Assembly (NCBI RefSeq): GCF_039724765.1
Contig: NZ_CP155732.1
Location: 41,819 to 105,818 of the forward strand
Origin: Sagittula stellata E-37
GTDB taxonomy: Bacteria; Pseudomonadota; Alphaproteobacteria; Rhodobacterales; Rhodobacteraceae
Direction: 5' to 3'
Length of the DNA stretch: 64,000 nucleotides
Position 1 is the stretch's first letter, and each line of letters opens with the position of its first letter. The translations under genes and the position numbers were made by a program. The notes under the pieces were generated by a model. It did not search any database and was not told the origin of the DNA. It worked only from the letters and a program-made list of their open reading frames with translations. This document shows, in pieces, positions 24,456 to 48,131 of the stretch.

Positions 24456-25277
24456 ATGAAACCCGTAAACTTCACGCTGGCCGCGCTGCTGGCGCTGGCT
24501 CCGTTCGCTGTGTCGGCAGAGGAATCGATCATCGTCCAGTCGACCACCTCCACCGCCAATTCGGGACTATACGACTACCTGCTGCCGCTGTTCTCGGACA
24601 AGACCGGCATCACGGTGAACGTTGTGGCCGTGGGCACCGGACAGGCGATCAAGAACGCCGCAAACTGCGACGGTGACGTGCTGCTGGTGCACGCCAAGCC
24701 CGCAGAGGAGAAATTCGTGGCCGACGGCGGCGGCACCTCGCGCACCGACCTGATGTACAACGACTTCGTCATCGTGGGCCCCGCCGGCGATCCGGCGGGC
24801 GTGGCCGGCACCTCGGACGTCGAAGCGGCCCTGAAGGCGATTGCCGACAAGGGCGCGATCTTCGCGTCGCGCGGGGACGATTCCGGCACCCACAAGAAAG
24901 AAAAAGCGCTGTGGCAGGCGGCCGGCGTCGATCCCGCAGCCGGGTCCGGCGACTGGTATCGCGAAACCGGGTCCGGCATGGGTGCGACACTGAACGCGGG
25001 CATCGGCATGGGCGCCTATGTGATGACCGACCGCGCCACCTGGATCAGCTTTGCCAACAAGCAGGACTACAAGATCGCGGTCGAAGGCGACGACGACCTG
25101 TTCAACCAGTACGGCGTGATCCCGGTGAACCCCGAGAAGTGCCCGGCGGTTAAGGTCGAAGCGGCCAAGGCGTTCTCGGACTGGCTGGTCTCGGACGAGG
25201 GGCAGAAGGCCATCGCCGGTTACACGGTGGACGGACAGCAGCTGTTCTTCCCCAATGCGCCCGAACAGGGTAGCTGA
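24456..25277 (+). CDS. tupA: Tungstate-binding periplasmic protein TupA
   Basis: The 273-residue protein has a signal peptide (ends AVSA) and the oxyanion-binding motif VQSTTSTANSGLYDYLLP at about residues 27-44. The two-lobe fold has a middle GSGMGATLNAGIGMGAYVMTD segment and the C-terminal closing strand DWLVSDEGQKAIAGY. TTTS-type motifs at the N-terminus distinguish TupA from ModA. Parts of this sequence are echoed in the cytochrome at 38542-39279. Confidence 0.9.
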   Translation: MKPVNFTLAALLALAPFAVSAEESIIVQSTTSTANSGLYDYLLPLFSDKTGITVNVVAVGTGQAIKNAANCDGDVLLVHAKPAEEKFVADGGGTSRTDLMYNDFVIVGPAGDPAGVAGTSDVEAALKAIADKGAIFASRGDDSGTHKKEKALWQAAGVDPAAGSGDWYRETGSGMGATLNAGIGMGAYVMTDRATWISFANKQDYKIAVEGDDDLFNQYGVIPVNPEKCPAVKVEAAKAFSDWLVSDEGQKAIAGYTVDGQQLFFPNAPEQGS

Positions 25278-25315: not shown

Positions 25316-26185
25316 ATGCATGAGCCGGAATTCCTGACGGTCCCCGAACTGGCGGATCTGTTGCGGATCAAGGAACGCAAGGTCTACGACCTCGCCGCGT
25401 CCGGCGAGGTCCCCTGCACACGCGCCACCGGCAAGCTGCTTTTCCCGTCGATCGCCGTGCGCGACTGGCTGGAGGCGCATTCCTCCGGTCACGTCGTCAA
25501 GACGCCGAGGCCGCCGGTCGTTCTGGGCAGCCACGATCCGCTTCTGGACTGGGCGATCCGCGAAAGCCGCTGCGGTCTGGCAAGCTACTTCGACGGCTCC
25601 GCGGACGGGTTAGCGCGCTTCAACCGGCGCGAGGGCGTGGCCGCTGGTCTGCACCTGCACGACGCGGACGGTCGGGAGTGGAACATTCCCAGCGTGGCGC
25701 GCAGCTCTGCCAACCAGAACGCCGTGCTGGTGCGTTTCGCCACCCGCGCGCGCGGGCTGGTGTTGCGGCGCGATCTGACGGGCGTCAGCGGCATGCAGGA
25801 CCTGGCCGGGCGACGCGTGGTGCCCCGGCAGGGCGGGTCGGGCAGCGACGTGCTGTTCCGCCAGCTGGCCGCAAAGGCGGGGCTGGACGCCGCCGCGCTG
25901 GACCTGGCCGAGGTCGCGCGGACGGAGACCGAGGCCGTGCAGGCCCTCTCCCGTGGCGACGCCGATGCAACGCTGGGGCTGGAAACCGTCGCACGGGATT
26001 TCGGCCTGCCCTTCGTGCCGCTGGTGGAGGAGCGCTTTGACCTGCTGGTAAACCGGCGGGCTTGGTTCGACACGCCGATGCAGCGGCTGATGGTCTTCTG
26101 CCAGTCGGAGGCCACGCTGGCCCGGGCGGAAAAGATGGGCGGTTACGATCTGACGGGACTGGGCACGGTGCGCTGGAACGCGTGA
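25316..26185 (+). CDS. HTH regulator with periplasmic-binding-like effector domain
   Basis: This 289-residue cytosolic protein has an excisionase-type helix-turn-helix at the N-terminus (EFLTVPELADLLRIKERKVYDLAASGEVPCTRATGKLLF) and a type II binding-protein-like domain from about residue 65 (DPLLDWAIRESRCGLA, then GSGSDVLFRQL, DADATLGLETVARDFGL). This layout is known for regulators that sense molybdate or tungstate. It follows tupA by 38 bp, so it is likely part of the operon and could sense W or Mo. The ligand is inferred from context. Confidence 0.85.
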   Translation: MHEPEFLTVPELADLLRIKERKVYDLAASGEVPCTRATGKLLFPSIAVRDWLEAHSSGHVVKTPRPPVVLGSHDPLLDWAIRESRCGLASYFDGSADGLARFNRREGVAAGLHLHDADGREWNIPSVARSSANQNAVLVRFATRARGLVLRRDLTGVSGMQDLAGRRVVPRQGGSGSDVLFRQLAAKAGLDAAALDLAEVARTETEAVQALSRGDADATLGLETVARDFGLPFVPLVEERFDLLVNRRAWFDTPMQRLMVFCQSEATLARAEKMGGYDLTGLGTVRWNA

Positions 26186-27643: not shown

Positions 27644-27772
27644 TCAGTCGAGCCGGACGCTTTCGCCGGTCGTCTGGCGCGCTGCGGTGGTGTCGCCCAA
27701 CGCCTCCAGCCCGTAGTGCGCCGCCACGCCGATCACGGCCACCGCGACAAATCCCATCAGCATTGCCTTCAT
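27644..27772 (-). CDS. Small single-helix membrane protein in the formate dehydrogenase operon
   Basis: A 42-residue reading frame starts at 27772, overlapping the end of the WD40-cytochrome gene by 4 bp (ATGA). It has one hydrophobic helix (MKAMLMGFVAVAVIGVAAHYGLEALG) and a short polar tail. It ends one base before the NtrC-type regulator stop-side gene on the same strand. The coupling and the clean membrane helix make it a likely real gene. A role as a small anchor or assembly subunit of the dehydrogenase is a guess. Confidence 0.7.
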   Translation of the reverse strand: MKAMLMGFVAVAVIGVAAHYGLEALGDTTAARQTTGESVRLD

Positions 27773-29049
27773 TTGCCAGCCTCCTTGCCGGATGTGTCGT
27801 TGGCCGATTTCAGGAATGCGATGAGGTCGGCCCGGTCGTCCGCCCCCGCGATCACCTGCATCGGCATCTTGGAGCCGGGAATATAGTGATCCGGCCCCTG
27901 ATCGAACAGCGCATCTATGGTGTCGTCCGTCCAGACGATGTCGGACCCGTCGAGCGTGTCGGAATAGGTGTAGCCCGGCACAGTGCCCGCCTGCCGTCCG
28001 AACACGCCGTGCAGCGTCGGCCCCGCCTTGCGCGACGGACCCGGCTCCAGCGCGTGGCAGATCGAGCATTTTCGCATGAATTGCCGTTCGCCGTTCGACA
28101 TGGTCGCCGCGTCGCGCAGGAAGCTGCGGTCGCCGCTGATGCCCGGATCGAAGGCGTCGAGCGCCTCGACCGGCCAGCCGAAAGCCACATCGTCGAGGCC
28201 GCCGGCCCATATCCTTGTCCCGTCGTCCGAGAACGCCAGCGCCCAGACCGGCCCTTCGCGGGTGGCGCGGAAGTCGCGTGTGATCTGCCAATCGGCGGTG
28301 TCGACCATCATGATGTAGCCGTGGCCGTCGCCGACGGCGAGCTGATCGGTCCCGGCGTGGTAGGCCATGGCGAGGATCGGGCGGCGGTCGAGGGTGAAAT
28401 CGGCGATCTGCCCGCCTTCGTGGTCGATCACGCGCGTCACCCCGTCGACCGCGCCGTAGGCGATCCAGTCAGGGGTCACGACGATCTCGTTGATGCCGAA
28501 GCCGTGGCTCACGATCTGGTCGGCGGTCTGCTCGATCAGGTCGTAACGCACAAGGAAGCCATTCGACGTCGCGGCCCAGAGGCGCGCCTTGTCGTCCATT
28601 GCAACGGCGTTCACCCCGCCGGGCGCGTCCAGGAACCGCCCGTCCGTATCGCCGGACAAAGACCAAAGCCCGACGGTCCCGTCCCAGCTGGCGCTGGCGA
28701 CAAGGCGCGCGTCGGGGGACACGGCCAGCGCCGTGACCTTGCCCTTGTGGGTGCCGAGGACGCGGGACGTGCCGTCCTGGCCCCAAAGCCGAACGGTGAA
28801 GTCGTCCGCGCCGGAGATCACCGCGCCATCCGGCCCGAAGGCAACCGCGTTGACCGCCGCCTCGTGGCCTTCCTTCCAGTCGGGCACGCCACCGGTCCAG
28901 ACACCGACGGAGTTGTCGAAGCTGGCGGTGACCACGCGGTCACCGGAGGCGGCGATGCCCATGATCGGGCCGCCGTGCCCCTTCAGGGTGGTGAACTCCT
29001 GCGCCCCTGCAGCCGAGGCACAAAGGCACAGGATGGCCAGCCAGCGCAT
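27769..29049 (-). CDS. WD40-repeat and cytochrome c fusion protein
   Basis: The 426-residue exported protein (MRWLAILCLCASAAGA) has about 300 residues of WD40-type repeats (TTLKGHGGPIMGIAASGDRVV, GADDFTVRLWGQDG, SASWDGTVGLWSL) and a C-terminal class I cytochrome c with haem motif CSICH near residue 334 and a distal Met in GSKMPMQVIAG. The start overlaps the cytochrome b stop (TGATG). It is probably a periplasmic electron carrier attached to the formate dehydrogenase, with the propeller for docking; that role is inferred from the fusion and operon. Confidence 0.9.
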   Translation of the reverse strand: MRWLAILCLCASAAGAQEFTTLKGHGGPIMGIAASGDRVVTASFDNSVGVWTGGVPDWKEGHEAAVNAVAFGPDGAVISGADDFTVRLWGQDGTSRVLGTHKGKVTALAVSPDARLVASASWDGTVGLWSLSGDTDGRFLDAPGGVNAVAMDDKARLWAATSNGFLVRYDLIEQTADQIVSHGFGINEIVVTPDWIAYGAVDGVTRVIDHEGGQIADFTLDRRPILAMAYHAGTDQLAVGDGHGYIMMVDTADWQITRDFRATREGPVWALAFSDDGTRIWAGGLDDVAFGWPVEALDAFDPGISGDRSFLRDAATMSNGERQFMRKCSICHALEPGPSRKAGPTLHGVFGRQAGTVPGYTYSDTLDGSDIVWTDDTIDALFDQGPDHYIPGSKMPMQVIAGADDRADLIAFLKSANDTSGKEAGK

Positions 29050-30293
29050 CACTCCGCCGGGGTCGCCCGTTCGGGCGCCCTGCCCTCGCGCGCGGCTTCG
29101 CGTTCCTTCACCTTCTCGTACCAGATGGAGTGGTGCTGTTCGGCCCAGTTTTCGTCCACCTGGCCGGACCCCATGGCGTCGTAGGCGCCCTCCATCCCGA
29201 TAGAGCCGATGTAGATGTGGCCGATGATGATCGCCATCAGGACAAAGGCAACGATGGCGTGCCAAAGCTGGGCAAGCTGCATCTCTTCCTGCGGAGCAAG
29301 TGCCACGGGCAGCGCGTCCATCCCGAAAAGGCCGGGAACACCGAGGTCGTTCAGCAGCAGGAAGGTCTTCGAGAACAGCGGCAGGTCGAAGGGGAACAGC
29401 AGCGAAAGCCCGGAAACGGAGATCGACGCACCGAACAGGATCACCGACCAGAAGATCAGCTTCTGACCCGCGTTGAACTTCTTCGCCGGGGGGTGCTTGT
29501 CGCCGACGATGCCGCCCGCCTGCTTGAACCAGATGATGTCCAGCTTGTTGGGAATGTTGTGCGCGACCCACAGGATGAAGACCAAGACGATCCCCAGCAT
29601 GAAAGCCCAGCTCACGTTGTTGTGGATGTACTTCGACACGGTCAGCCATGTCGCGTTCGCGTCGTGGCCCAGAACCGGGATCAGGAACTTGCGCCCGAAC
29701 AGAGTGAAAAGCCCGGTGAACGCCAGCAGCACGAAGGACCCGGCGGTCATCCAGTGCGTGAAGCGTTCGAAGGCGTGAAACCGGGTAACCGTCTTGCCGG
29801 TTTTGCCCCCCTCGATCCGGATACGGCCGCGGAACAGGAAAAACACGGCGAGAAGGCCGATGGTCCCAAGCAGCAGCCAGCCGCCATACGTGCGCAGCGG
29901 CCCGTCGCGCAGGCTCAGCCATCTCATGCCGCCGTCCTGCATCAGCACTTCGCCCACCGGCCGGTGCGTCGATACGGTCACGTCCGCCTTGTTGTAGCGC
30001 AGCGCGCGCCACAGGTCCGGATCGGACGAGGTGCCGAGCGGTGCGAGGTTCGGCGGCGGCACGGCATCGCCCCCGGTGTTGTTCGACCGGAAGTCGTCGT
30101 TGATCGGCAGGCCCTCCTGCCGCCGCAGGATGTCCTCCAGCGTCTGCGCGCCGCCGGTATCCTGCCGGGCCGCGGCCAGCTCTGCCTCGGTTTCGTCGAT
30201 GCGCGGACCCGGTGCCATCCAGAACGAGAAGATCGTTATGGCCAGCAGCACGAGTATGAAGGCGACGAAGCCGCTCGAACGTTCAGTCGTCAT
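29049..30293 (-). CDS. Formate dehydrogenase cytochrome b (gamma) subunit
   Basis: The 414-residue membrane subunit has an N-terminal helix (FVAFILVLLAITIFSFWMAPG), a periplasmic stretch of about 100 residues, and then four core helices of the FdnI/FdoI type with histidines for two b haems (RFHAFERFTHWMTAGSF, SKYIHNNVSWAFM, LWHAIVAFVLMAIIIGHIYIG). The N-terminal extension is longer than in E. coli FdnI. It anchors the enzyme and passes electrons to quinone. The ATG at 30293 is preferred over one 12 bases upstream because GGGG sits at the right distance. It is followed directly by the WD40-cytochrome gene. Confidence 0.92.
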   Translation of the reverse strand: MTTERSSGFVAFILVLLAITIFSFWMAPGPRIDETEAELAAARQDTGGAQTLEDILRRQEGLPINDDFRSNNTGGDAVPPPNLAPLGTSSDPDLWRALRYNKADVTVSTHRPVGEVLMQDGGMRWLSLRDGPLRTYGGWLLLGTIGLLAVFFLFRGRIRIEGGKTGKTVTRFHAFERFTHWMTAGSFVLLAFTGLFTLFGRKFLIPVLGHDANATWLTVSKYIHNNVSWAFMLGIVLVFILWVAHNIPNKLDIIWFKQAGGIVGDKHPPAKKFNAGQKLIFWSVILFGASISVSGLSLLFPFDLPLFSKTFLLLNDLGVPGLFGMDALPVALAPQEEMQLAQLWHAIVAFVLMAIIIGHIYIGSIGMEGAYDAMGSGQVDENWAEQHHSIWYEKVKEREAAREGRAPERATPAE

Positions 30294-30445: not shown

Positions 30446-31039
30446 TCAGCCGCCCTTCTGGTCGTAGGCCGTGCCCCAGCCCCAGGCGCCAGAGCCGAAG
30501 CCCCGGGCCACCACGCGCTCGCGGTAGATGGCCGACACGACGTCGCCATCGCCCGCCAGCAGGGCCTTGGTGGAACACATCTCGGCGCAGATCGGCAGCT
30601 TGCCTTCCGCGATCCGGTTACGGCCGTACTTCTGGAACTCCGCCTGGGAGTTGTTCTCCTCGGGACCACCGGCGCAGAAGGTGCACTTGTCCATCTTGCC
30701 GCGCGACCCGAAGTTGCCCGCCTGCGGATACTGCGGCGCACCGAAGGGGCACGCGTAGAAGCAATAGCCGCAGCCGATGCACAGGTCCTTGGAGTGCAGG
30801 ACGACGCCTTCCTCGTTCTGGTAGAAGCAGTCGACCGGGCACACCGCCATGCAGGGCGCGTCCGAGCAGTGCATGCAGGCGACCGAGATCGAGCGTTCGC
30901 CCGGCTGGCCGTCCTGAATGGTCACCACGCGGCGACGGTTGATGCCCCACGGCACTTCGTGCTCGTTCTTGCAGGCGGTGACGCAGGCGTTGCATTCGAT
31001 GCAGCGTTCGGCGTCACAGAGGAACTTCGCTCTTGCCAT
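30446..31039 (-). CDS. Formate dehydrogenase iron-sulfur (beta) subunit
   Basis: The 197-residue ferredoxin-type subunit has four cysteine clusters for [4Fe-4S] centres: CIECNACVTAC, CMHCSDAPCMAVCP, CIGCGYCFYACP and CTFCAGG with a later CAEMC. It lacks the C-terminal membrane helix of E. coli FdnH, so it depends on other subunits for membrane attachment. It moves electrons from the alpha subunit to cytochrome b. It follows the alpha gene by 12 bp. Confidence 0.94.
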   Translation of the reverse strand: MARAKFLCDAERCIECNACVTACKNEHEVPWGINRRRVVTIQDGQPGERSISVACMHCSDAPCMAVCPVDCFYQNEEGVVLHSKDLCIGCGYCFYACPFGAPQYPQAGNFGSRGKMDKCTFCAGGPEENNSQAEFQKYGRNRIAEGKLPICAEMCSTKALLAGDGDVVSAIYRERVVARGFGSGAWGWGTAYDQKGG

Positions 31040-31051
31040 GTTTCTCTCTCC

Positions 31052-33949
31052 TTATGCCGGCATGATCTTGCAGAGGGTGGCCTTGGTCTCCTGCATCTGC
31101 GTGACGGAGTCGTAGCCGTAGGTCTGCGCCGTGTTGGTGGATTCACCCAGGACGATGGGGTCCGCCCCTTCGGGGTACTTCGACCTCAGATCCTCGCCCT
31201 GATACCAGCCGCCGAAGTGGAAGGGCATGAAGGCCACGCCCTCGCCCACCCGTTCGGTGACCATCGCCTTGACCTTGACCTTGCCGCCTTCGGGACCTTC
31301 GACCCAGACCATGGCCGCGTCACGCACACCGAGGTTGTTGGCGTCGCGCGGGTTGATCTCGACGAACATGTCCTGCTGCAGCTCGGCGAGCCACGGGTTG
31401 GACCGGGTTTCGTCCCCGCCGCCCTCGTATTCGACCAACCGGCCGGAGGTGAGGATCATCGGGTAGTCCTTGGAGAAGTCCTGCTTCTGGATCGACGCAT
31501 ACATGGTCGGCAGACGGTAGAACTTCCGGTCGTCGTAGGTGGGATAGTCGGCCACCAGGTCGCGCCGGTTGGTATACAGCGCCTCGCGGTGGATCGGCAC
31601 GGGATCGGGGAATTCCCAGACCACGCAGCGCGCCTTGGCGTTGCCGTAGGGCGCGCAGCCATGCTCGATCGCGACCCGCTGGATGCCGCCCGAAAGGTCG
31701 GTCTTCCAGTTGGTCTTCGGTCCGGCAATCGCTTCGATGGTGGACTTTTCCTCGTCCGTCAGGTCCGCGTCCCAACCAAGGTCCATCAGCATCTGCATGG
31801 TGAACTCCGGATACCCGTCCTGGATTTCCGAGCCCGGGTTGAAGACGCCTTCCGCCAGCAGGTTGTCGCCGTTGCGCTCCACACCGTAGCGGGCCCGGAA
31901 CGGCAGGCCGCCGTCCTTCACCGCAAGGTCGATGTTGTAGAGGTTGGGCGAACCGGGATGGTTCATCTCGGCTGTGCCCCAGCACGGCCACGGCAGACCG
32001 TAATAGTCGCCGTCGGCAGGCCCGCCCACCGCGCGCAGCGTGGTGCGGTCGAAGGTGTGCTGGTTCTCCATGTGAAGCTTCAGGCGCTCCGGAGACTGGC
32101 CGGTGTAGCCGACCGTCCACATGCCGCGATTGATCTCGCGCAGCGTGTCCTCGATGTTCGGGGTCACACCGTCTTCTTCAATCGCGATGTTGCGGAACAG
32201 ACGGTCATGGTAACCGAACTTCTTGGCGAACAGGCCCATGATCTCGTGATCGGGCTTCGATTCGAAGATCGGCTTCACGACGCGCTGGCGCCACTGGATC
32301 GAGCGGTTCGACGCGGTGACCGAACCGTAGGTCTCGAACTGGGTCGCCGCCGGCAACAGGTAGACGCCATCCGTCCGGTCGTGCAGCACGGCGGACACGG
32401 TCGGATAGGGGTCCACCACCACAAGGAGGTCCAGAAGCTCCATCGCCTTCTTCATCTCGACCATGCGGGTCTGAGAGTTCGGCGCGTGGCCCCACAAGAC
32501 CATGCCACGGACCTTGTTGGGCTGGTCCATGTTCTCGGCGTCTTCAAGGACACCGTCGATCCAGCGCGACACCGGAATACCGGTCTCGTACATCAGATCC
32601 TTGTCCTTGCCGTCGGCGCCGGGCATCTTGGCGAACTGACCGTTCAGCCAGTCGAAGTCCTCGCCCCAGACGCGGGTCCAGTGCTGCCACGAGCCCTTGG
32701 CCAGACCGTAATAGCCTGCCAGCGTGTGCGACAGGACGCCAAGGTCGGTCGCCCCCTGCACGTTGTCGTGGCCGCGGAAGATGTTGGTGCCGCCGCCGGA
32801 CACACCCATGTTCCCAAGCGCAAGCTGAAGGATGCAGTAGGCCCGGGTGTTGTTGTTGCCGGTGGTGTGCTGGGTGCCGCCCATGCACCAGATCACGGTG
32901 CCGGGACGGTTGTTCGCCAGCGTCCGCGCCACCCGCTCAAGCTGGGAACCTGGCACGCCGGTCACGCGCTCGACTTCCTCGGGGTTCCACTTGGCCACTT
33001 CCTCGCGGATCTGGTCCATGCCCCAGACACGGGTGCGGATGAATTCGCGGTCTTCCCAGCCGTTCTCGAAGATGTGGTACAGGATGCCCCAGACCAGCGC
33101 CACGTCGGTGCCGGGACGGAAGCGCACGTATTCGTCCGCGTGGGCCGCCGTCCGGGTAAATCGCGGATCACAGACGATCAGCGGGGCGTTGTTCTGCTCC
33201 TTGGCGCGCAGCACGTGCAACAGCGAGACGGGGTGCGCCTCGGCCGGGTTGCCGCCGATGATGAAGATCGCCTTGGAGTTATGGATGTCGTTGTAGGAGT
33301 TCGTCATCGCGCCGTAGCCCCAGGTGTTGGCAACACCCGCGACCGTGGTCGAGTGACAGATCCGCGCCTGGTGGTCGACGTTGTTCGTCCCCCAGTAACG
33401 CGCGAATTTCTGGAACAGGTAGGCCTGTTCGTTGTTGTGCTTCGCCGAGCCCAACCAGTAGACGGAATCCGGTCCGCTTTCCTCGCGGATCGTCATCATC
33501 TGGTCGCCGATCTCGTTGATCGCGTCTTCCCAGCTGATACGGACCCATTCTCCCCCGACTTTCTTCATCGGGTACTTGAGGCGGCGTTCGCCGTGGGTGT
33601 GCTCGCGCACGGAGGCGCCCTTCGCACAGTGGGAGCCCAGGTTGAACGGGCTGTCCCAGCCGGGCTCCTGCCCGGTCCAGACGCCATCCTGCACCTCAGC
33701 CATGACGGTACATCCGACCGAACAGTGGGTGCATACGGTTTTCTTCAGGTCCACCTTGCCGGTTGCCGCGGTCTGGGCACTGGCCTGCTGGACGGTTCCT
33801 CCGGTCGCTGCAATCGCGGCAAGGCCGCCGATCGCCAGACCGGACCCGCGGAGGAATCCGCGCCGGTCAACCGAGGTCTTTGCCACCTCGGACAGGATCG
33901 AAGTCCGCTGGGGGCGTCGCGCAACCCCGTTGGTCTTTTTCCTAAGCAT
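31052..33949 (-). CDS. Formate dehydrogenase alpha subunit, Mo/W-bis-MGD, Tat-exported
   Basis: The 965-residue catalytic subunit oxidises formate to CO2. A twin-arginine signal (SVDRRGFLRGSGLAIGG, Arg29-Arg30) sends it to the periplasm. The N-terminal [4Fe-4S] site uses Cys73, Cys76, Cys80 and Cys108 (CTHCSVGC and SHCAKG). The metal ligand is Cys198 with His199 in ARICHST, so no selenocysteine is used. The C-terminal molybdopterin dinucleotide-binding domain covers about residues 820-965. Start at 33949 is set by the Tat signal. The adjacent tungstate transporter makes a tungsten enzyme possible; Mo cannot be excluded. Confidence 0.95.
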   Translation of the reverse strand: MLRKKTNGVARRPQRTSILSEVAKTSVDRRGFLRGSGLAIGGLAAIAATGGTVQQASAQTAATGKVDLKKTVCTHCSVGCTVMAEVQDGVWTGQEPGWDSPFNLGSHCAKGASVREHTHGERRLKYPMKKVGGEWVRISWEDAINEIGDQMMTIREESGPDSVYWLGSAKHNNEQAYLFQKFARYWGTNNVDHQARICHSTTVAGVANTWGYGAMTNSYNDIHNSKAIFIIGGNPAEAHPVSLLHVLRAKEQNNAPLIVCDPRFTRTAAHADEYVRFRPGTDVALVWGILYHIFENGWEDREFIRTRVWGMDQIREEVAKWNPEEVERVTGVPGSQLERVARTLANNRPGTVIWCMGGTQHTTGNNNTRAYCILQLALGNMGVSGGGTNIFRGHDNVQGATDLGVLSHTLAGYYGLAKGSWQHWTRVWGEDFDWLNGQFAKMPGADGKDKDLMYETGIPVSRWIDGVLEDAENMDQPNKVRGMVLWGHAPNSQTRMVEMKKAMELLDLLVVVDPYPTVSAVLHDRTDGVYLLPAATQFETYGSVTASNRSIQWRQRVVKPIFESKPDHEIMGLFAKKFGYHDRLFRNIAIEEDGVTPNIEDTLREINRGMWTVGYTGQSPERLKLHMENQHTFDRTTLRAVGGPADGDYYGLPWPCWGTAEMNHPGSPNLYNIDLAVKDGGLPFRARYGVERNGDNLLAEGVFNPGSEIQDGYPEFTMQMLMDLGWDADLTDEEKSTIEAIAGPKTNWKTDLSGGIQRVAIEHGCAPYGNAKARCVVWEFPDPVPIHREALYTNRRDLVADYPTYDDRKFYRLPTMYASIQKQDFSKDYPMILTSGRLVEYEGGGDETRSNPWLAELQQDMFVEINPRDANNLGVRDAAMVWVEGPEGGKVKVKAMVTERVGEGVAFMPFHFGGWYQGEDLRSKYPEGADPIVLGESTNTAQTYGYDSVTQMQETKATLCKIMPA

Positions 33950-36589: not shown

Positions 36590-38539
36590 ATGATCAAGTC
36601 CTTGATTACATGCGATTGTCTCGGCACACAGCAGATCGACGCAGAGGCCCTGTCGCGCACCACCGGGCTGGACGTACGCCGCCCCTGTTCGGCGCTCTGC
36701 ACGACCGAGCTGCCCCGTGCCGCAGAAGCCTTGACGCAGGGTGACACAATTTTCTGCTGCACCCAGGAGGCCCGGGTGTTCGAGGCCCTCGCAGAGGACT
36801 TGGACCTGCCCGCGCCGCCCACGCTCGACCTGCGTGACCGGGTGGGATGGAGCGCCGATCCGGCCTCCAAGGTGGCCAAAATGTCCGCGCTGGTGGCAGA
36901 GGCCATGCTGCCCGCCGCGCCGGAAAAGACCATCGACGTGATCTCAGAGGGGCTGTGCCTGATCGTCGGCCCGGCAGACGCCGCGCTGGCCGCCGCAGAA
37001 CAGCTCAAGGATCACCTTGGCGTCACCGTCCTGCTGCCGCCCGGGTCGGACATCCCCGACACCCGCGCCTTCGACGTCATCACCGGCCGGCTGCGCCGGG
37101 CCAAGGGGGCGCTCGGACATTTCGAGGTGGTGATCGACGCGTTGCGCATGATCGAACCCGGCGGGCGCGGCGGTTTCACCCTGACCGAACCGCGCGACGG
37201 CGGTGCCTCTCAGTGCGATATCCTGCTGGACCTGCGCGGCGACACGCCCCTTTTCCCGGCGCACGAGAAGCGCGAAGGCTACCTGCGCGCCGATCCCGGC
37301 CATGCCCCTGCCGTCTCTGCCGCGATCCTCGCCGCGTCGCACCTGACCGGCACCTTCGAGAAGACGATGCACGTCCGGATGGAGCCGCTGCTCTGCGCCC
37401 ATTCCCGGGCCGAGCAGACCGGCTGCACGCGATGCCTCGACCTCTGCCCGACAGGGGCGATCACGCCGGACGGCGAACATGTTTCCGTCGATCCGCTGAT
37501 CTGCGCCGGGTGCGGTGCCTGTTCGGCGGTCTGCCCGTCCGGGGCGATCAGCTACGACGCTCCGCCGGTGGACTTGACCATGCGTCGCGTCCAGACGCTG
37601 GCGAAGGCCTTCCTCGACGCGGGCGGCAGCGCGCCGCGCCTGCTGGTCCACGACGACCACGGCGCCGAGATGATCCGCCTCGCCGCGCGCCACCACACCG
37701 GCCTGCCCGCCGACGTGATCCCGCTGGAGCTGCCCAAGGTCGGCGTCTTCGGTCATGCCGAGATCGTGGCGGCCCTGGCCGCCGGTTTCGCATCCGTCGC
37801 ACTGCTGCCGGGTCCGAAGGCGGACATGGAGGCAATCGGCCCGCAGGTCTCGCTGGCCGGTGCCATCGGCGGCGCGACCCGCGTGACGGTGATCGACACG
37901 CCGGACCCCGAAGTCCTCTCCGATACGCTCTATAGGGCCGAAGCCCCTGCCCCGCTCGACACCGCGCACGTCCGGCCCATGGGCACCCGCCGCCAGATCA
38001 CCCGGCAGGCGGCGCGGGCGCTGAACCCGGTGGCCGAGACCCTGCCGCTGCCCGAAGGCGCGCCCTACGGTGCCGTGCTGGTCGATCAGGACGCCTGCAC
38101 ACTCTGCCTGTCCTGCGTGTCGCTTTGCCCGTCCGGCGCGCTTGGCGACAACCCCGACCGGCCCGAGTTGCGCTTTCAGGAAGACGCCTGCCTGCAATGC
38201 GGCCTCTGCGCCAACGTCTGCCCGGAGGAGGCGATCAGCCTTCAGCCGCAACTCGACCTGACGCCCGCCGCCCTGACGCAGCGTGTCCTCAAGGAAGAGG
38301 AGCCCTTTGCCTGCATCGAATGCGGCAAGCTCTTCGGCGTGAAGTCGACGGTGGAGAAGATCACCGAAAAGCTGCAGTCGCATTCGATGTTCGCGGGCGA
38401 CCGCCTGCGCATGGTGCAGATGTGCGACGACTGCCGGATCAACGCGCAGTACCACTCCGACGAAAATCCCTTCGCCAGCAAGCCGCGCCCGCGTCCGCGT
38501 ACCACCGAAGACTACCTGTCAAAGCGGCGCGACCATTGA
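36590..38539 (+). CDS. Polyferredoxin-like 4Fe-4S protein of the formate dehydrogenase locus
   Basis: The 649-residue cytosolic protein starts at an ATG preceded by GGGAGGAAAACC. It carries at least four ferredoxin-type clusters: CTRCLDLCP, CAGCGACSAVCP, CTLCLSCVSLCP and CLQCGLCANVCP, with extra Cys near the N-terminus (CDCLG, CSALC, CCTQ) and C-terminus (CIECGK, CDDC). It matches the large 4Fe-4S protein found divergently next to DUF3305/DUF3306 in proteobacteria. It may deliver electrons or sulfur during cofactor assembly; this is inferred. It converges with the cytochrome gene at 38542. Confidence 0.88.
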   Translation: MIKSLITCDCLGTQQIDAEALSRTTGLDVRRPCSALCTTELPRAAEALTQGDTIFCCTQEARVFEALAEDLDLPAPPTLDLRDRVGWSADPASKVAKMSALVAEAMLPAAPEKTIDVISEGLCLIVGPADAALAAAEQLKDHLGVTVLLPPGSDIPDTRAFDVITGRLRRAKGALGHFEVVIDALRMIEPGGRGGFTLTEPRDGGASQCDILLDLRGDTPLFPAHEKREGYLRADPGHAPAVSAAILAASHLTGTFEKTMHVRMEPLLCAHSRAEQTGCTRCLDLCPTGAITPDGEHVSVDPLICAGCGACSAVCPSGAISYDAPPVDLTMRRVQTLAKAFLDAGGSAPRLLVHDDHGAEMIRLAARHHTGLPADVIPLELPKVGVFGHAEIVAALAAGFASVALLPGPKADMEAIGPQVSLAGAIGGATRVTVIDTPDPEVLSDTLYRAEAPAPLDTAHVRPMGTRRQITRQAARALNPVAETLPLPEGAPYGAVLVDQDACTLCLSCVSLCPSGALGDNPDRPELRFQEDACLQCGLCANVCPEEAISLQPQLDLTPAALTQRVLKEEEPFACIECGKLFGVKSTVEKITEKLQSHSMFAGDRLRMVQMCDDCRINAQYHSDENPFASKPRPRPRTTEDYLSKRRDH

Positions 38540-38541
38540 TG

Positions 38542-39279
38542 TCAGCGGGAATCCAGCGGCGCGCCAAGGTCGGCGGCCTGCATCGTCGACACATAGGCCA
38601 GCACGGCGTCGATCTCGTCCAGCGTCATCTCGACCGGGACGATCGGGCTTGGCCGCGCCTCGTCAAATGGCGGCGAGACACCCTCGATCTGGGTGAAGGC
38701 CGGGTGCGGGTTCAGGGCATAGAACCCCATGAAACGGTCGACCCAGTCCGGAAAGGCGCGCATGACCATGAAACTGGGGGTAGAGCCGATACTGCGGAAC
38801 GCGCCGCCCTCTTCGACCGCGTGGCAGCGCCCGCATTTCACCCGCGAGATTTCCAGCCCCTGTGCGGCGTCGCCGTCGGGGACGAAGGCCGCGACCTCGC
38901 GTTCCTTCTGCTTGGGCAGGGTAAACAGCGCCTCGCCCTCCGGCGCATAGGCGGTCACCGTGTTGCGCCCGACCTCTCCGGTCAGCCAGTCCGTCAGCTT
39001 CGCGGTCCACTCCGTCTGATCGGTGACCTGCATCGACCAGACCGCACCCGCGCCCTCGAACAGCGGCGTGCCGTCCGCACCCAGCACGACCTGCGCGGCG
39101 GCCGGGTCATCGACGACCTCCACCTTCACCTGCGTCTTCAGCTTGAAGCGCGGAAGGATGTAATCCAGCAGGCCGGAGGCCACCAGCGGCTCCGGCGCGA
39201 AAAGACGAACGGCACGATCCTGTGCGACCGCCTTGAAGGGCAGCACGGCAAGGGCCAGTATCAACAACCAGACACGCAT
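38542..39279 (-). CDS. Cytochrome c with an N-terminal TupA-like half-domain
   Basis: This 245-residue exported protein (signal MRVWLLILALAVLPFKAVA) has a class I cytochrome c from about residue 135, with haem motif CGRCH (149-153), and a distal-Met candidate in PVEMTLDEIDAVLAYVS. The 110 residues before it echo the TupA protein of this window: SGLLDYILPRFKLKT against SGLYDYLLPLFSDKT, and DWLTGEVGRNTVTAYAPEGEALF against DWLVSDEGQKAIAGYTVDGQQLF. Those two TupA parts are its N- and C-terminal ends, which together build one lobe, so the middle lobe seems to be missing. The TTTS oxyanion motif is not kept. It is convergent with the polyferredoxin gene. Confidence 0.85.
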   Translation of the reverse strand: MRVWLLILALAVLPFKAVAQDRAVRLFAPEPLVASGLLDYILPRFKLKTQVKVEVVDDPAAAQVVLGADGTPLFEGAGAVWSMQVTDQTEWTAKLTDWLTGEVGRNTVTAYAPEGEALFTLPKQKEREVAAFVPDGDAAQGLEISRVKCGRCHAVEEGGAFRSIGSTPSFMVMRAFPDWVDRFMGFYALNPHPAFTQIEGVSPPFDEARPSPIVPVEMTLDEIDAVLAYVSTMQAADLGAPLDSR

Positions 39280-39335: not shown

Positions 39336-39527
39336 ATGAGCGACGAATTCAACATGTCCATGCGCAAATTCCTCAAGCAGGTCGGCGTGACCTCGCAGCA
39401 GGCCATCGAAGAGGCGATGCGCGACGCCGATACCGCCGGAAAATCCTTCCCGGTCAAGGCCGTCATCACCATTCCCGAGCTTGGCCTGACCCACGAGGTC
39501 ACGGGCGAGATCAAGGGGCAGGAGTAA
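39336..39527 (+). CDS. DUF6494 small protein
   Basis: The 63-residue acidic protein (MSDEFNMSMRKFLKQVGVTSQQ) has a helix-strand layout with a C-terminal VKAVITIPELGLTHEVTGEI. It matches the small DUF6494 family found with Mrp-type ATPases near formate dehydrogenase genes. It leads a five-gene operon with the ATPase, DUF4444, DUF6505 and kinase genes. The role is unknown. Confidence 0.85.
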   Translation: MSDEFNMSMRKFLKQVGVTSQQAIEEAMRDADTAGKSFPVKAVITIPELGLTHEVTGEIKGQE

Positions 39528-39530
39528 ACC

Positions 39531-40580
39531 TTGGCCTCGCGTGAAGAGATCCTGGAGATCCTGAAGACCGTCTCCGCCCCCTCGGGCGAGGACATCGTGG
39601 CCGCCGGCGTGGTCCGTGCGCTTGGCGTGGCCGACAGCGGCGTGCGCTTCGTGCTGGAGGTGCCGCCGGGACAGGCCGACAAGTGGCAGCCGGTCAAAAC
39701 GAAGGCCGAAGAGGCGCTGGCCGCCGCCGGCGTGGGCAACGTCCATATCGCGGTGACCGCCGATGCCCCGCCCCCCGGCCTCGGCGCCAAGCCGAAACCG
39801 AAGCCGCAGGGCCCGCAGAAGATCCCCGGCGTCGACCACCTGATCGCCATCGCCTCCGGCAAGGGCGGCGTGGGCAAGTCCACGGTGTCCGCCAACCTCG
39901 CCTGCGCGCTGGCGCAGCAGGGCAAACGCGTGGGCCTGCTGGACGCCGACGTCTACGGCCCGTCCCAGCCACGGATGCTGGGGGTGTCCGGGCGCCCCGC
40001 CTCGCCCGATGGCAAGACGATCCTGCCGCTCCGCAACCACGGCGTCACGATGATGTCCATCGGCCTCATGACCAACGAGGACCAGGCCGTCGTGTGGCGC
40101 GGCCCGATGCTGATGGGCGCGCTGCAGCAGATGATGATGCAGGTGCAATGGGGCGCGCTCGACGTGCTGATCGTCGACCTGCCGCCCGGCACCGGCGACG
40201 TGCAGATGACCCTGGCCCAGAAGGCGCAGGTGGACGGCGCGGTGATCGTCTCCACCCCGCAGGACGTGGCGCTTCTGGACGCGCGCAAGGGCATCGACAT
40301 GTTCAAGCAGTTGAACGTCCCGATCCTCGGGATGATCGAGAACATGTCGACCCACATCTGTTCGAAGTGCGGGCACGAGGAACACGTCTTCGGCCATGGC
40401 GGCGTCGCGGCAGAGGCCGCCAAACTGGGCGTGCCGCTGCTGGCCGAGGTGCCGCTCGACCTGCAGATCCGGCTGGCGTCGGACGGCGGGGCGCCCATCG
40501 TGGTCAGCCAGCCCGACAGCCCGCAGGCGCAGGCCTTCCACGCGGTGGCGACCGCGCTCATCAAGGGCGCGCTGGCATGA
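39531..40580 (+). CDS. apbC: Mrp/ApbC-family Fe-S carrier P-loop ATPase
   Basis: The 349-residue protein has an N-terminal MIP18-like domain (EEILEILKTVSAPSGEDIV), a Pro/Lys linker, and a deviant P-loop SGKGGVGKST near residue 110, Walker B DVLIVDLPPGTGD and the Fe-S ligand pair CSKC (THICSKCGHEEH). Such ATPases carry and insert [4Fe-4S] clusters. It begins with TTG, just 3 bp after the DUF6494 stop; no closer ATG is in frame. A chromosomal housekeeping copy likely also exists, so this one probably serves the formate dehydrogenase. Confidence 0.9.
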   Translation: MASREEILEILKTVSAPSGEDIVAAGVVRALGVADSGVRFVLEVPPGQADKWQPVKTKAEEALAAAGVGNVHIAVTADAPPPGLGAKPKPKPQGPQKIPGVDHLIAIASGKGGVGKSTVSANLACALAQQGKRVGLLDADVYGPSQPRMLGVSGRPASPDGKTILPLRNHGVTMMSIGLMTNEDQAVVWRGPMLMGALQQMMMQVQWGALDVLIVDLPPGTGDVQMTLAQKAQVDGAVIVSTPQDVALLDARKGIDMFKQLNVPILGMIENMSTHICSKCGHEEHVFGHGGVAAEAAKLGVPLLAEVPLDLQIRLASDGGAPIVVSQPDSPQAQAFHAVATALIKGALA

Positions 40581-43866: not shown

Positions 43867-43895
43867 TTGACGTTGCGCCGTGGGTTGTCTAAGGT
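43867..43895 (+). promoter_or_regulatory. Candidate sigma-70 promoter of the VgrG operon
   Basis: TTGACG (43867-43872), a 17-base spacer and TAAGGT (43890-43895) precede vgrG by 32 bp, in a 200-bp gap after the sensor kinase gene. The -10 match is moderate. Confidence 0.45.
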
Positions 43896-43927
43896 ACTAT
43901 CACTTTGGATTTAATCAGGTTCGAACC

Positions 43928-46264
43928 ATGGCTTTGAAACAAGATTCCCGAATGGGGAAGCTGTCGACCGTGCTCGGCAAGGACGTATTGGTCCTCCAGC
44001 GGTTCGAAGGCTTGGACCGGATGAACGGGCTCTTCGAGTATCACGTGGCGTGCCTGTCCGAGGACGAGAACGTCGATTTCGACAGCCTGATGGGGACCAA
44101 CGCAACGGTTTCGATCAAGGCGCGCGACGGCTCCGACAAGTACTTCAACGGCCTCGTGACCGAAGCCCGCTGGCTTGGCGCAGGTGAAAACGGCATCCGG
44201 TACGAACTGACGCTGAAGCCGTGGTTCTGGCTGGCCACCCTGCGGCGCAACCAGCGCATCTTCCACGAAAAGACCGTGATCGAGATCCTGCAGGAACTGC
44301 TGGCCCCCTACGGCTCGGGCGGCAACCTGACGGTGCAGACGCAGGGCACCTACCCGACCCTCGAATACACCGTGCAGTTCAACGAAAGCGACTTCGACTT
44401 TGCCGTTCGGATGATGGAACGCCACGGCATCAGCTACTTCTTCAAGATGAGCGACGGCGCGCACGAGATGGTGCTGACCGATTCCGTCGAAAGCCACGAG
44501 GTGCTGGGCGCCTTCCCGGTGAAGCCCTACGTCGGCCACCACCAGGAAGACACGGAACACCTGTGGGAATGGCGCCCGGAACGCCGGATGACCACCGGTG
44601 CGATCCGGATGACCGACTACAACTTCAAGACGCCCACCACCGTGATGGAGAAGGACCAGACCGGCAGCGCCTCCTACGCGCACGGGCAGATCGAAAGTTT
44701 CGACTGGCCGGGCGATTACCTCGATCCCGGCCGCGGCACCGAGATGGTTTCGCTCGGGCTTGACCGGGCGCAGGGGCACGACAAGCGTTACGAGGCGATG
44801 GGCGACATCGTCGGGCTGTTCTCCGGTCTGAAGATCAGCATCGCGGGCGACAGTTCCGAGGTGCCGGGCAAGGGCGACGAATTCCTCTGCCTCGTCGCGC
44901 ACCACTCCTACACCTCCGACAACTACGGCTCGGGCGGCACGTCGGGCGACGGGTTCGCCTTTACCGCGCGCTTCGTGATGATGCCGTCGAACGCCCCGCT
45001 GATCCCCGAGAAGAAAAGCCGCCGCGCCGATGTGCGCGGGCCGATGACCGCGGTTGTCGTGGGCGCCGAGGGCGAAGAGATCGACTGCGACGAATACGGT
45101 CGCATCCTCGTCCGCTTCCCCTGGGACCTCAGCGATGCGCGGTCCATGCGCTGCCGTGTGTCGCAGAACTGGGGCGGCGGAAGCTGGGGCGGCATGATCA
45201 TCCCCCGGATCGGCATGGAAGTGGTCGTCGAATTCCTTGACGGCGACCCGGACAAGCCGCTGGTGACGGGCTGCGTCTACAACGGCAAGAACATGGTCGC
45301 CTACCCCCTGCCCGCCCACAAGACGAAGTCGGTCTTCCGCACCGACAGCCACAAGGCCACCGGCTTCAACGAGATGGTCTTCGAGGATGAGCCGGGCCAG
45401 GAAAACATCGCGTTCAAGGCGCAGCAGGACTGGTCGCGGCTGGTGCTCAACGACTCGATCAGCCGGGTCAAGCGGCACGACATCGAAAGCGTCGGCATGA
45501 ACAAGATGGTCGAGGTCGGCAACAACCTGAAGATGGAGGCCGGCGGTTCGGTCAACATCTCCTCGGGCGGCACGGGTCCCGACATTAAAAGCCTGCTGGG
45601 CGGGCTCGGCGGCCTGATGGGCAAGTCCAAGTCGCTGGTCAAGAAAGGCGCTTCCGAGGGCGGCGGATCGTCGGGCGGCGATCTGGGCAAGTTCGCCGGC
45701 ACCCTCGGCGCCAAGGATCTCGGCTTCATCTCCGGCACCGGCGGGGCGGGGCGGTCGGGCATGCACAGTGCCGACGAGGAAGGCAAGGACGCCAACCACA
45801 AGCTGCGCGAGGACGGGACCAAGTACGGCGAAAGCGGCTACTCCCTGTTCGAGAGCCCCGGCGTGGTGAACACCTTCGCGTCGAACTTCCGGTCGGACAC
45901 CACTGGCGTCGCATCGGTTGAATCGGTCGGCCTGACGAAGATCCTCAACGTCGGCGGCGCGGTGAAGGAAAACGTCGGCAAGAAGATGACCACCGACGTC
46001 GGCGAAGACATCGAGATGACCTCCGGCAAGACGATCCTGAACAAGACGATGAAGCACACGCTGATCGCGACGCAGAAGTTCACCATCGCGGCCCCCGGTG
46101 CCACGATCGAGATGGACGCCTCCGGGATCACCATCAAGGCGTTCACCATGAAGGTTCAGTGCCCGTCGGTGGACTTCAACATGGGCGCGCCCAGTCAGGC
46201 GACAGTGTTGCAGGCACCCCAGGCGTTCTGCGAAGAATGCCAGGGCACGGCAGGGGGCGATTGA
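43928..46264 (+). CDS. vgrG: Type VI secretion VgrG spike protein
   Basis: The 778-residue protein has the gp27-like part (SRMGKLSTVLGKDVLVLQRFEGLDRMNGLFEYHV through RFVMMPSN), the gp5-OB part (GPMTAVVVGAEGEEIDCDEYGRILVRFPWD, RVSQNWGGGSWGGMIIPRIGMEVVVEFLDGDPDKP) and a beta-helical tail. The tail carries a Gly/Ser/Lys-rich insertion at about residues 560-620 (SSGGTGPDIKSLLGG, GASEGGGSSGGDLG), unlike a plain VgrG, and ends in CEECQGTAGGD. It forms the spike tip of a T6SS; the core genes are not in the window. A six-gene cargo operon follows. Confidence 0.93.
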   Translation: MALKQDSRMGKLSTVLGKDVLVLQRFEGLDRMNGLFEYHVACLSEDENVDFDSLMGTNATVSIKARDGSDKYFNGLVTEARWLGAGENGIRYELTLKPWFWLATLRRNQRIFHEKTVIEILQELLAPYGSGGNLTVQTQGTYPTLEYTVQFNESDFDFAVRMMERHGISYFFKMSDGAHEMVLTDSVESHEVLGAFPVKPYVGHHQEDTEHLWEWRPERRMTTGAIRMTDYNFKTPTTVMEKDQTGSASYAHGQIESFDWPGDYLDPGRGTEMVSLGLDRAQGHDKRYEAMGDIVGLFSGLKISIAGDSSEVPGKGDEFLCLVAHHSYTSDNYGSGGTSGDGFAFTARFVMMPSNAPLIPEKKSRRADVRGPMTAVVVGAEGEEIDCDEYGRILVRFPWDLSDARSMRCRVSQNWGGGSWGGMIIPRIGMEVVVEFLDGDPDKPLVTGCVYNGKNMVAYPLPAHKTKSVFRTDSHKATGFNEMVFEDEPGQENIAFKAQQDWSRLVLNDSISRVKRHDIESVGMNKMVEVGNNLKMEAGGSVNISSGGTGPDIKSLLGGLGGLMGKSKSLVKKGASEGGGSSGGDLGKFAGTLGAKDLGFISGTGGAGRSGMHSADEEGKDANHKLREDGTKYGESGYSLFESPGVVNTFASNFRSDTTGVASVESVGLTKILNVGGAVKENVGKKMTTDVGEDIEMTSGKTILNKTMKHTLIATQKFTIAAPGATIEMDASGITIKAFTMKVQCPSVDFNMGAPSQATVLQAPQAFCEECQGTAGGD

Positions 46265-46851
46265 TGAACGACGTGGTCATCCACATGTCGGACCCCGCCG
46301 ACAGCGCCGACGAGGCGCTGGCGATGGCGTTGGAAAAGGCCTGCGGCCCGGACCAGACGGCCTATCTGCTGATCGACGCCAGCAAGTCGCCGGCGACCCA
46401 GTGCATCATCGAGACCATGACCGACGACGCGTTGTGCCTGTTCGACGGACAGGCCTTCGACGATCTGGCGGCCTATGCGCCTTGGCTCGTGCCCCTGACC
46501 GGCTCGGGCCTTCGGGTGTTCGAGTGGTTCATGGAGGAAGGCTGGAACAAGGACTGGGGCCTTTTCCTGATCGCCGGACAGGATGCGAAAAAGGTGAAGA
46601 CCTCGCTCAAGCGGTCTCTGCGGGTCAAGACGGAGGACGACAAGGAGCTGTTCTTCAAGTTCTACCGTCCCAGCGTGTTCAACACCTACCTGCCCGCCAT
46701 GGAGCCGGAGCAATGCGCCTACGTGCTGCGTGATCTCGCGCAGGTCTGGGCCGAGGATTCCGACAACCCGCAGCTTGTGCACCGCTACGCGATCCGCGAA
46801 GGCACCCTGCGCCGCGCCGACCTCAGCCTGACCGTGGCCGAGGATGCCTGA
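46264..46851 (+). CDS. DUF4123 T6SS effector adaptor
   Basis: The 195-residue cytosolic protein has the DUF4123 pattern: AYLLIDASKSPAT near the N-terminus, the APWLVPL motif and WFMEEGWNKDWGLFLIAGQD, then LKRSLRVKTEDDKELFFKFYRPSVFNTYLP. DUF4123 proteins load effectors on VgrG. Overlaps on both sides (TGATG) couple it to vgrG and the next gene. It presumably brings the WHH-type effector or the next protein to the spike. Confidence 0.9.
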   Translation: MNDVVIHMSDPADSADEALAMALEKACGPDQTAYLLIDASKSPATQCIIETMTDDALCLFDGQAFDDLAAYAPWLVPLTGSGLRVFEWFMEEGWNKDWGLFLIAGQDAKKVKTSLKRSLRVKTEDDKELFFKFYRPSVFNTYLPAMEPEQCAYVLRDLAQVWAEDSDNPQLVHRYAIREGTLRRADLSLTVAEDA

Positions 46852-47267
46852 TGCCCCCACGGCTCACCCTCGACACCGGCCAGCGGTCGGCGCCGCTCAA
46901 TGACGACCGGGCCTTCGCCAGGGCATACGTCGAAGAAGTGATGAAGACCCACCTGCCGCAGGACTACTGGTCGCTCTCGCCCGAGGGCCGGATCGAGATG
47001 ACCATGAACGGCCGCCGTTACGCGCGGCATTTCGGCATCACGGACGTGAAGTCGCAGATGATGTTCATCACGCTCATGTGGGAGGTCGGAGCAAATTTCT
47101 TCATGTTTTCAGGGTTTAAGGAGATCGCGGTCAGTGCGGTCGACGGGCCTTCCAAGATAGATGCCTTCTTCGAGGTCGACAGCGATCTCGCGGCAGAGGC
47201 CATCATGAACGCGGATTCCAGGTATTGGTATCCGGACATGGCCGGGATCACCGGCCTGAACGGATGA
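46851..47267 (+). CDS. Unknown protein in the VgrG-DUF4123 operon
   Basis: The 138-residue protein (MPPRLTLDTGQRSAPLNDDRAF) is coupled to the DUF4123 gene by a TGATG junction. It has a middle hydrophobic strand-rich region (MMFITLMWEVGANFFMFSGF), no signal peptide and no motif I recognise. It could be an adaptor, a small effector fragment, or an Eag-like chaperone of the downstream toxin. A 24-bp gap separates it from the WHH nuclease. Confidence 0.75.
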   Translation: MPPRLTLDTGQRSAPLNDDRAFARAYVEEVMKTHLPQDYWSLSPEGRIEMTMNGRRYARHFGITDVKSQMMFITLMWEVGANFFMFSGFKEIAVSAVDGPSKIDAFFEVDSDLAAEAIMNADSRYWYPDMAGITGLNG

Positions 47268-47291
47268 AGCACCCGATGTGAGTACCGCGTC

Positions 47292-48131
47292 ATGAGCAAG
47301 TACCTGAAGGACGAAGGAGTCGATCCCGCGGCCGTGCGCGCCCAGCACAAGCAGGTCGACGACATGTACAAGGACATCGCGACCGAAATCGGCTTTGCCG
47401 TAGGTGGCGCTGTGCCGGTTGCGGGCGTGGTGGTCGATGCCGCATCGGCGGTCCGCTCGGCATGGCAGGGCGACTGGTTCGGGGCCGCCGTCGACGTCTT
47501 TGGCATGATCCCCGGCTGGGGCGACGCCGCGAAGGCGGCAAAGGTCACCGACAAGGTCAACACCATCCGCCGCACCATCGACGTCGCCAGGGTCGGACTG
47601 AAGGCGTCTTACCGGCAGACCAAGGAAGCCGCGGCGAAATACTGGGACGACGTCATCAAGAAGCAGAAGGCCGCCTACGAGGCAGCCGCCAAGAAGTGCA
47701 ACGGCACGAAGGAGTGCCTCGAAAAGCTCGAAAAGATGAAGAACCCGCCGCATTACGACCAGGTGCCGACCAACGGCACATGGACCAGCGGCAGCCGGGG
47801 GGACGGCTGGTTTCAGCCCGCCGACACTTCGAAACCGCCAATAAGGTACAAGAACGGATTTCCGGATCTATATCCGCATTCGAAGGGCAACGTCGACATC
47901 CCGATGAAGGGCAACCATACGTCGGATTTCACTAATGCCGACAAGGCGATGCGCGAAAAGCTGGGCAACGACAACTGGACCCGTCCCGAAGGGTACACCT
48001 GGCACCACAACGAAAACGGCACGACGATGCAGCTTGTACCGCAAAGCATCCATTCGACCAGCAAGGGCGGCTATGCCACGCACACCGGCGGCGCCGCGCT
48101 CTACAAAGGCAGTCACAAGTCCGAATTCTAG
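47292..48131 (+). CDS. WHH-motif HNH/EndoVII nuclease T6SS effector
   Basis: The 279-residue protein has an N-terminal Gly/Ala-rich hydrophobic region (residues 33-85, IGFAVGGAVPVAGVVVDAAS, FGMIPGWGDAAKAAK) like pre-toxin domains, a charged linker, and a C-terminal toxin with WHH at 237-239 (EGYTWHHNENGTTMQLVP), followed by His254 and His264 (IHSTSKGGYATHTGG). That is the WHH family of HNH/EndoVII-fold DNases. It lacks a VgrG or PAAR domain of its own and thus needs the upstream adaptor. The next gene is its presumed immunity gene. Confidence 0.88.
   Translation: MSKYLKDEGVDPAAVRAQHKQVDDMYKDIATEIGFAVGGAVPVAGVVVDAASAVRSAWQGDWFGAAVDVFGMIPGWGDAAKAAKVTDKVNTIRRTIDVARVGLKASYRQTKEAAAKYWDDVIKKQKAAYEAAAKKCNGTKECLEKLEKMKNPPHYDQVPTNGTWTSGSRGDGWFQPADTSKPPIRYKNGFPDLYPHSKGNVDIPMKGNHTSDFTNADKAMREKLGNDNWTRPEGYTWHHNENGTTMQLVPQSIHSTSKGGYATHTGGAALYKGSHKSEF

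Follow-up and report, generated by a model that had tools for sequence, protein, structure and literature searches.

A cytochrome c joined in one chain to part of a binding protein, and encoded in a dehydrogenase cluster, is known from Methylacidiphilum, whose XoxG:J (cytochrome cGJ) was reportedly characterised as an electron acceptor in a paper of 2019. XoxJ represents a binding-protein family other than TupA, and the enzyme of XoxG:J is PQQ- and lanthanide-dependent. In this fusion, encoded in a methanol dehydrogenase operon, the XoxJ part is truncated and an unfused XoxJ is also kept (PMC6688271, PMC8170126); a speculative role for the XoxJ part is to attach the cytochrome to methanol dehydrogenase (PMC6688271). 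Formate dehydrogenase (FDH) operons with DUF3305 and DUF3306 genes are known from a chaperone survey, in passages of which the cytochrome considered here is not mentioned (PMC4464133).

Within a 64,000-nucleotide stretch of the Sagittula stellata E-37 genome (hereafter the window), we identified a gene encoding a signal peptide, lobe I of a TupA-type tungstate-binding protein and a one-haem cytochrome c (Table 1). Its likeness to XoxG:J is one of published descriptions as opposed to sequence or structure, and it differs in that its lobe is of TupA type and its dehydrogenase oxidises formate. With XoxG:J as precedent, the claim of the initial annotation that no protein of such type had been described falls. 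As fusions of cytochromes with binding proteins are already known, what appears to be new is the TupA-derived, single-lobe, FDH-linked version, for which no published description was found in a search of titles and abstract openings, mostly outside subscription journals.

Table 1. Features of the fusion gene and its surroundings (positions in the window)
Feature	Position	Strand	Basis or remark
Whole fusion gene: signal peptide, TupA-type lobe I, one-haem cytochrome c; 245 aa	38542..39279	-	
Sec-type signal peptide, residues 1-19	39223..39279	-	by eye
Lobe I domain, residues 21-125	38905..39219	-	
Lobe I, first part, residues 22-67	39079..39216	-	matches N-terminal part of TupA
Lobe I, second part, residues 79-123	38911..39045	-	matches C-terminal part of TupA
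Cytochrome c domain, residues 129-245	38545..38895	-	PF00034 below cutoff; 24-row alignment
Haem-binding motif CGRCH, residues 149-153	38821..38835	-	C, C and H invariant in 24 sequences
His192 of PHP motif, candidate distal haem ligand	38704..38706	-	invariant in 40-row and 24-row alignments
TupB and TupC, permease and ATPase adjoining TupA	22982..24428	+	named by eye and position
TupA, complete two-lobed tungstate-binding protein	24456..25277	+	TupA model 224 bits, cutoff 400
Putative regulator adjoining TupA	25316..26185	+	by eye
WD40-cytochrome c protein	27772..29052	-	
FDH gamma subunit (cytochrome b)	29049..30293	-	TIGR01583 152 bits, cutoff 116
FDH beta subunit, FDH3 type	30446..31039	-	NF038355 344 bits, cutoff 240
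FDH alpha subunit (FdhA)	31052..33946	-	Fdh-alpha 490 bits, below cutoff 666
Protein with several [4Fe-4S] domains, convergent neighbour	36590..38539	+	family search
DUF6494 gene, divergent neighbour	39336..39527	+	PF20104
Mrp/ApbC-type iron-sulfur carrier	39531..40580	+	PF10609
VgrG-like ORF, then small genes and possible effector	43880..48131	+	by eye

A single TupA-type lobe joined to a cytochrome c

Behind a signal peptide that is helical in the predicted structure and variable in sequence among relatives, the protein comprises an N-terminal domain of about 105 residues and a one-haem cytochrome c domain, separated by a variable linker. The initial annotation correctly placed a lobe before the haem domain, although its length of 110 residues is revised here to about 105. 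Homologues of the fusion protein numbered 1,572 at E <= 0.001, of which 120 were listed and 40, including the window's own, were aligned; where names and organisms were given for those listed, the proteins are called either "hypothetical protein" or a "cytochrome c" of one kind or another, and the genera are of Rhodobacterales type. The fused reading frame was found in all 40 aligned relatives, and no internal stops occur in the fusion gene or in 14 related coding sequences (15 checked).

TupA is the family from which the lobe derives. BLASTP comparison with the window's TupA aligned 43 residues of the N-terminal part at 40% identity (E 5e-6, in a single comparison) and a C-terminal part at E 1.8, which by itself is not significant; the latter match extends beyond the stretch quoted earlier, to GEALFTLPKQ/GQQLFFPNAPEQ. 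A profile of the 40 relatives, searched at E <= 0.001 against all 5.29 Mb of the host genome, recovered only the protein itself (1.8e-120) and TupA twice, at model positions 6-61 (E 5.7e-4) and 92-128 (E 2.2e-4). Against 385 genomes of the class, the same profile matched TupA-like proteins at model positions 5-73 (best E 7.0e-9) and in a second region at about 88-130. In a profile-profile comparison with 61 TupA rows, the N-terminal domain matched both ends collinearly (E 5.1e-7 and 4.2e-7), and 18 TupA proteins from the loci of other families matched the window's TupA over most of its length (E <= 1e-20). The resemblance at two separate places reported in the initial annotation is thus upheld far beyond chance, and since the profile finds TupA in the host and class genomes, rather than cytochrome families alone, we ruled out that the protein is only a member of a cytochrome family. 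The NCBIfam TupA model NF041772 gave no match to the fusion protein at E <= 10. Two other candidates were dropped, namely DUF5300 for the lobe (a weak Pfam match, E 0.014, below cutoff) and QcrC, the sole NCBIfam match of the fusion protein (18 bits against a cutoff of 200).

In the predicted structure (pTM 0.51 for the whole protein, with residues 154-166 poor), the N-terminal domain has the fold of a TupA-type lobe I. Predicted structure and sequence signature agree that both chain ends build this lobe, as they do in TupA (5my5, 3lr1, 3muq); unlike TupA, the fusion is devoid of lobe II, TTTS and the VGTGQ loop, and has a cytochrome c appended.

About 11 residues separate the two matched parts, compared to well over 100 in TupA, and lobe II is absent. 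TTST of the window's TupA corresponds to PEPL in the fusion. Among the 40 fusion-family rows, the Thr, Thr and Ser of TTS are kept in 0, 1 and 1, the residues of GTGQ in 6, 2, 2 and 0, and the oxyanion-site histidine of lobe I in 2, alignment gaps making this row-by-row count uncertain around the histidine; in TupA the same site residues are kept in 40-41 of 41 rows. Therefore no row possesses the whole site, which in TupA includes further residues in lobe II (PMC5517513). These losses, proposed in the initial annotation for lobe II and the TTTS site, rule out a plain two-lobed relative of TupA and imply that the half-TupA no longer serves transport. The accompanying idea that a cytochrome replaced lobe II needs amendment: lobe II was lost, but the cytochrome is appended after lobe I and not inserted.

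The C-terminal domain bears a single CxxCH haem site, as in class I cytochromes c. PF00034 falls short of its gathering threshold (21.3 bits) with the whole protein (16.9 bits, E 0.017) and with the domain alone (19.5 bits, E 0.0025), and matches 16 of the 24 members of the haem alignment at E <= 0.01. Across these 24 sequences, some fused and others unfused, the columns that never vary are a Gly and an Arg, together with the motifs C..CH, S.PSF and PH. No Met that might serve as distal ligand is invariant among them and, the haem-motif histidine apart, the PH histidine (His192) alone qualifies as an invariant candidate sixth ligand, a pattern that suggests His/His ligation.

Gene neighbourhood and co-occurrence with formate dehydrogenase

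The fusion gene resides in an FDH3-type cluster, as identified by a beta subunit scoring above the NF038355 cutoff. Neighbourhoods were compared among the best 80 of 403 relatives found in genome contigs (83 loci were collected and the window's own 3 excluded), so that the counts are biased to close relatives. The [4Fe-4S] protein gene is convergent with the fusion gene and within 198 bases in all 80 loci; Mrp is present in 78, DUF3305 in 76, DUF3306 in 75 and DUF6494 in 68. FdhA was found in 74; each of the remaining six is cut off by the end of its contig.

A number of further features were observed in and around the cluster. For the large [4Fe-4S] protein, none of the 25 NCBIfam models listed (of 56 matched) reaches its cutoff, and in the FDH gamma subunit about 168 residues precede the cytochrome b domain. 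A second odd cytochrome fusion, comprising a WD40 beta-propeller and a C-terminal cytochrome c, occurs within the fetched flanks of 54 of the 80 related loci; like the present protein it joins a cytochrome c to a non-redox domain in the same cluster, that domain being a beta-propeller and not a binding-protein lobe. The gene adjoining TupA has helix-turn-helix and binding-protein-like parts, and possibly encodes a tungstate-responsive regulator. Two TupA lineages are found near the fusion, one 71-84% identical to the window's and accompanied by the putative regulator gene, the other about 46-54% identical (loci L010, L023, L041 and L062 versus L004 and others). A roseobacter-like locus (L001; 71% identity, same gene order) comes from a record titled Enemella evansiae, which is possibly mislabelled. 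Elsewhere in the window, an ORF resembling a type VI secretion VgrG precedes small genes and what may be a secreted effector.

We surveyed 149 genomes of the host's taxonomic family, scoring FdhA at 75% identity or more; the FdhA counts include partial matches (G504, G452, G515, G392 and G408), and four genomes with a best match of 59-62% (G414, G419, G421 and G449) were counted as without. The fusion was detected in 56 genomes, the unfused form in 2 and FdhA in 72. The initial annotation had raised the question of whether the fusion always accompanies FDH and tup genes. FdhA is present in 55 of the 56 fusion genomes, the exception (G403) being a draft in 210 contigs, and tup genes are present in all 56; conversely, 15 of the 72 FdhA genomes carry neither the fused nor the unfused form at the threshold used. 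As the gene is also missing between conserved neighbours at two loci (L158 and L159), it is dispensable. Given that the fusion tracks FdhA yet is missing from some genomes, it belongs with FDH, as an accessory.

Unfused cytochromes and the history of the fusion

The cytochrome half alone was identified at ten loci from other alphaproteobacterial families (L113-L122); two further unfused cytochromes were found in genomes G763 and G567. These proteins share with the fusion the haem domain with its CxxCH, S.PSF and PH motifs and, unlike it, have no lobe. At seven of the ten loci the unfused cytochrome lies beside FDH-cluster genes, with FdhA seen in six: it adjoins DUF6494 and Mrp, with FdhA near, in L113, L114 and L116, and lies elsewhere within the FDH cluster in L115, L118 and L122. 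L117 has the [4Fe-4S] gene, DUF6494, DUF3305 and tup genes close by, but no FdhA in the fetched stretch. No FDH-cluster gene was found within the stretches fetched around L119, L120 and L121. Within the host family, the two unfused genes (genomes G388 and G438) are situated away from the FDH genes of their genomes, and no FDH gene was found in the stretches fetched around them (L167 and L168). Loci of this kind indicate that the partner of the cytochrome need not be FDH.

G366 and G288, two genomes from a different family of the class, also contain the full fusion, which was not seen outside Alphaproteobacteria in a sparse sample of 398 genomes from the phylum (E <= 1e-6). A tree with 25 lobe rows unites the fused lobes in a single clade (100/100), which stands on a long branch apart from all TupA rows used; the tree-building program cautions that long branches can attract each other. 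A tree of 54 of 100 fused cytochrome rows and 12 unfused, built from few columns, needs two changes between fused and unfused forms; it allows a single fusion followed by a loss, without singling out that course.

Proposed role of the lobe

We propose that the lobe I half of a TupA was joined, possibly in a single event, to a periplasmic one-haem cytochrome c of an FDH3-type cluster; this half kept its predicted fold, lost its oxyanion site and would have left transport. Conservation of the lobe despite the loss of its ligand site points most readily to a protein-binding surface. Most likely the lobe works in docking and tethers the cytochrome to a protein partner, for which the FDH complex is our first choice, and electrons from formate could then pass to soluble cytochrome carriers of the periplasm, in addition to the quinone route that the gamma subunit offers; that this subunit already provides a route to quinone counts against the scheme. 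We regard the overall reading, of an FDH3-cluster cytochrome with a domesticated TupA lobe I that docks on a partner for formate electrons, as evenly balanced between right and wrong. The initial annotation had likewise envisaged docking, on FDH or the transporter; its single lobe I, with lobe II and site lost, is retained as an observation, and docking as a proposal.

Conservation bears on whether the lobe has a specific partner. Mean pairwise identity over the 40 rows is 54% in the lobe, 29% in the linker and 64% in the haem domain, and pN/pS is 0.53 in the lobe and 0.43 in the haem domain, with silent sites nearly saturated. The greater variability of the lobe relative to the haem domain, and the fact that unfused relatives manage without a lobe, might suggest a structural or dimerising appendage with no specific partner, the cytochrome working alone. 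However, 56 of the 58 host-family genomes with the cytochrome have the lobe, and P43, R44, F45, L47, K48 and W81 are invariant in all 40 rows, and we consider an appendage of this kind unlikely.

The lobe derives from a protein that binds a permease, as binding-protein lobes do in docking. TupA and TupB are each present in all 56 fusion genomes, and TupA lies within the fetched flanks of 40 of the 80 loci (discounting a match at L061 that is the fusion itself), consistent with a lobe that docks on the TupB permease, where the haem would make tungstate import redox-dependent, for example by blocking TupB against TupA. Nevertheless, each of the 72 FdhA genomes likewise has TupA and TupB, whose presence is therefore not specific to the fusion. 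Moreover, among TupA-positive genomes the fusion was detected in only 1 of 33 without FdhA, against 55 of 72 with it, which lowers the transporter as sole partner and leaves docking on TupB rather improbable.

Cofactor insertion of Tat-exported molybdoenzymes is cytoplasmic. The fusion, with its Sec-type signal (assigned by eye) and haem c site, would function elsewhere, which makes it very unlikely to be a maturation factor assisting cofactor insertion into the dehydrogenase, despite neighbours that include maturation-type proteins (TorD-like and Mrp) and the proposal that XoxJ helps PQQ insertion (PMC8170126). A chance resemblance to TupA, for which nothing speaks beyond the weak pairwise C-terminal match, or an accident of frame, is of negligible probability, being contradicted by the profile, class-genome, profile-profile and predicted-fold evidence and by intact fused frames among the relatives.

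With docking on the FDH complex as the preferred reading, a broader view can be advanced more tentatively, and with somewhat less than even confidence: that half a binding protein acts as the docking arm of an FDH3 electron acceptor, independent of and parallel to XoxG:J, in what would be a recurrent way to aim cytochromes at dehydrogenases. If true, the fusion would offer a clear example of a binding protein pared from two lobes to one that stands by itself and serves a purpose other than transport; together with XoxG:J, it suggests a repeated design rule. It would also name a testable electron acceptor for FDH3-type enzymes, among which the activity of Fdh3 of Methylobacterium extorquens could not yet be assayed in 2010 (PMC2991311). 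A large family, whose members with a name listed are currently called hypothetical or just cytochrome c, would thereby become annotatable, probably as a repurposed docking module that aids the exit of electrons from a formate-oxidising enzyme in marine bacteria.
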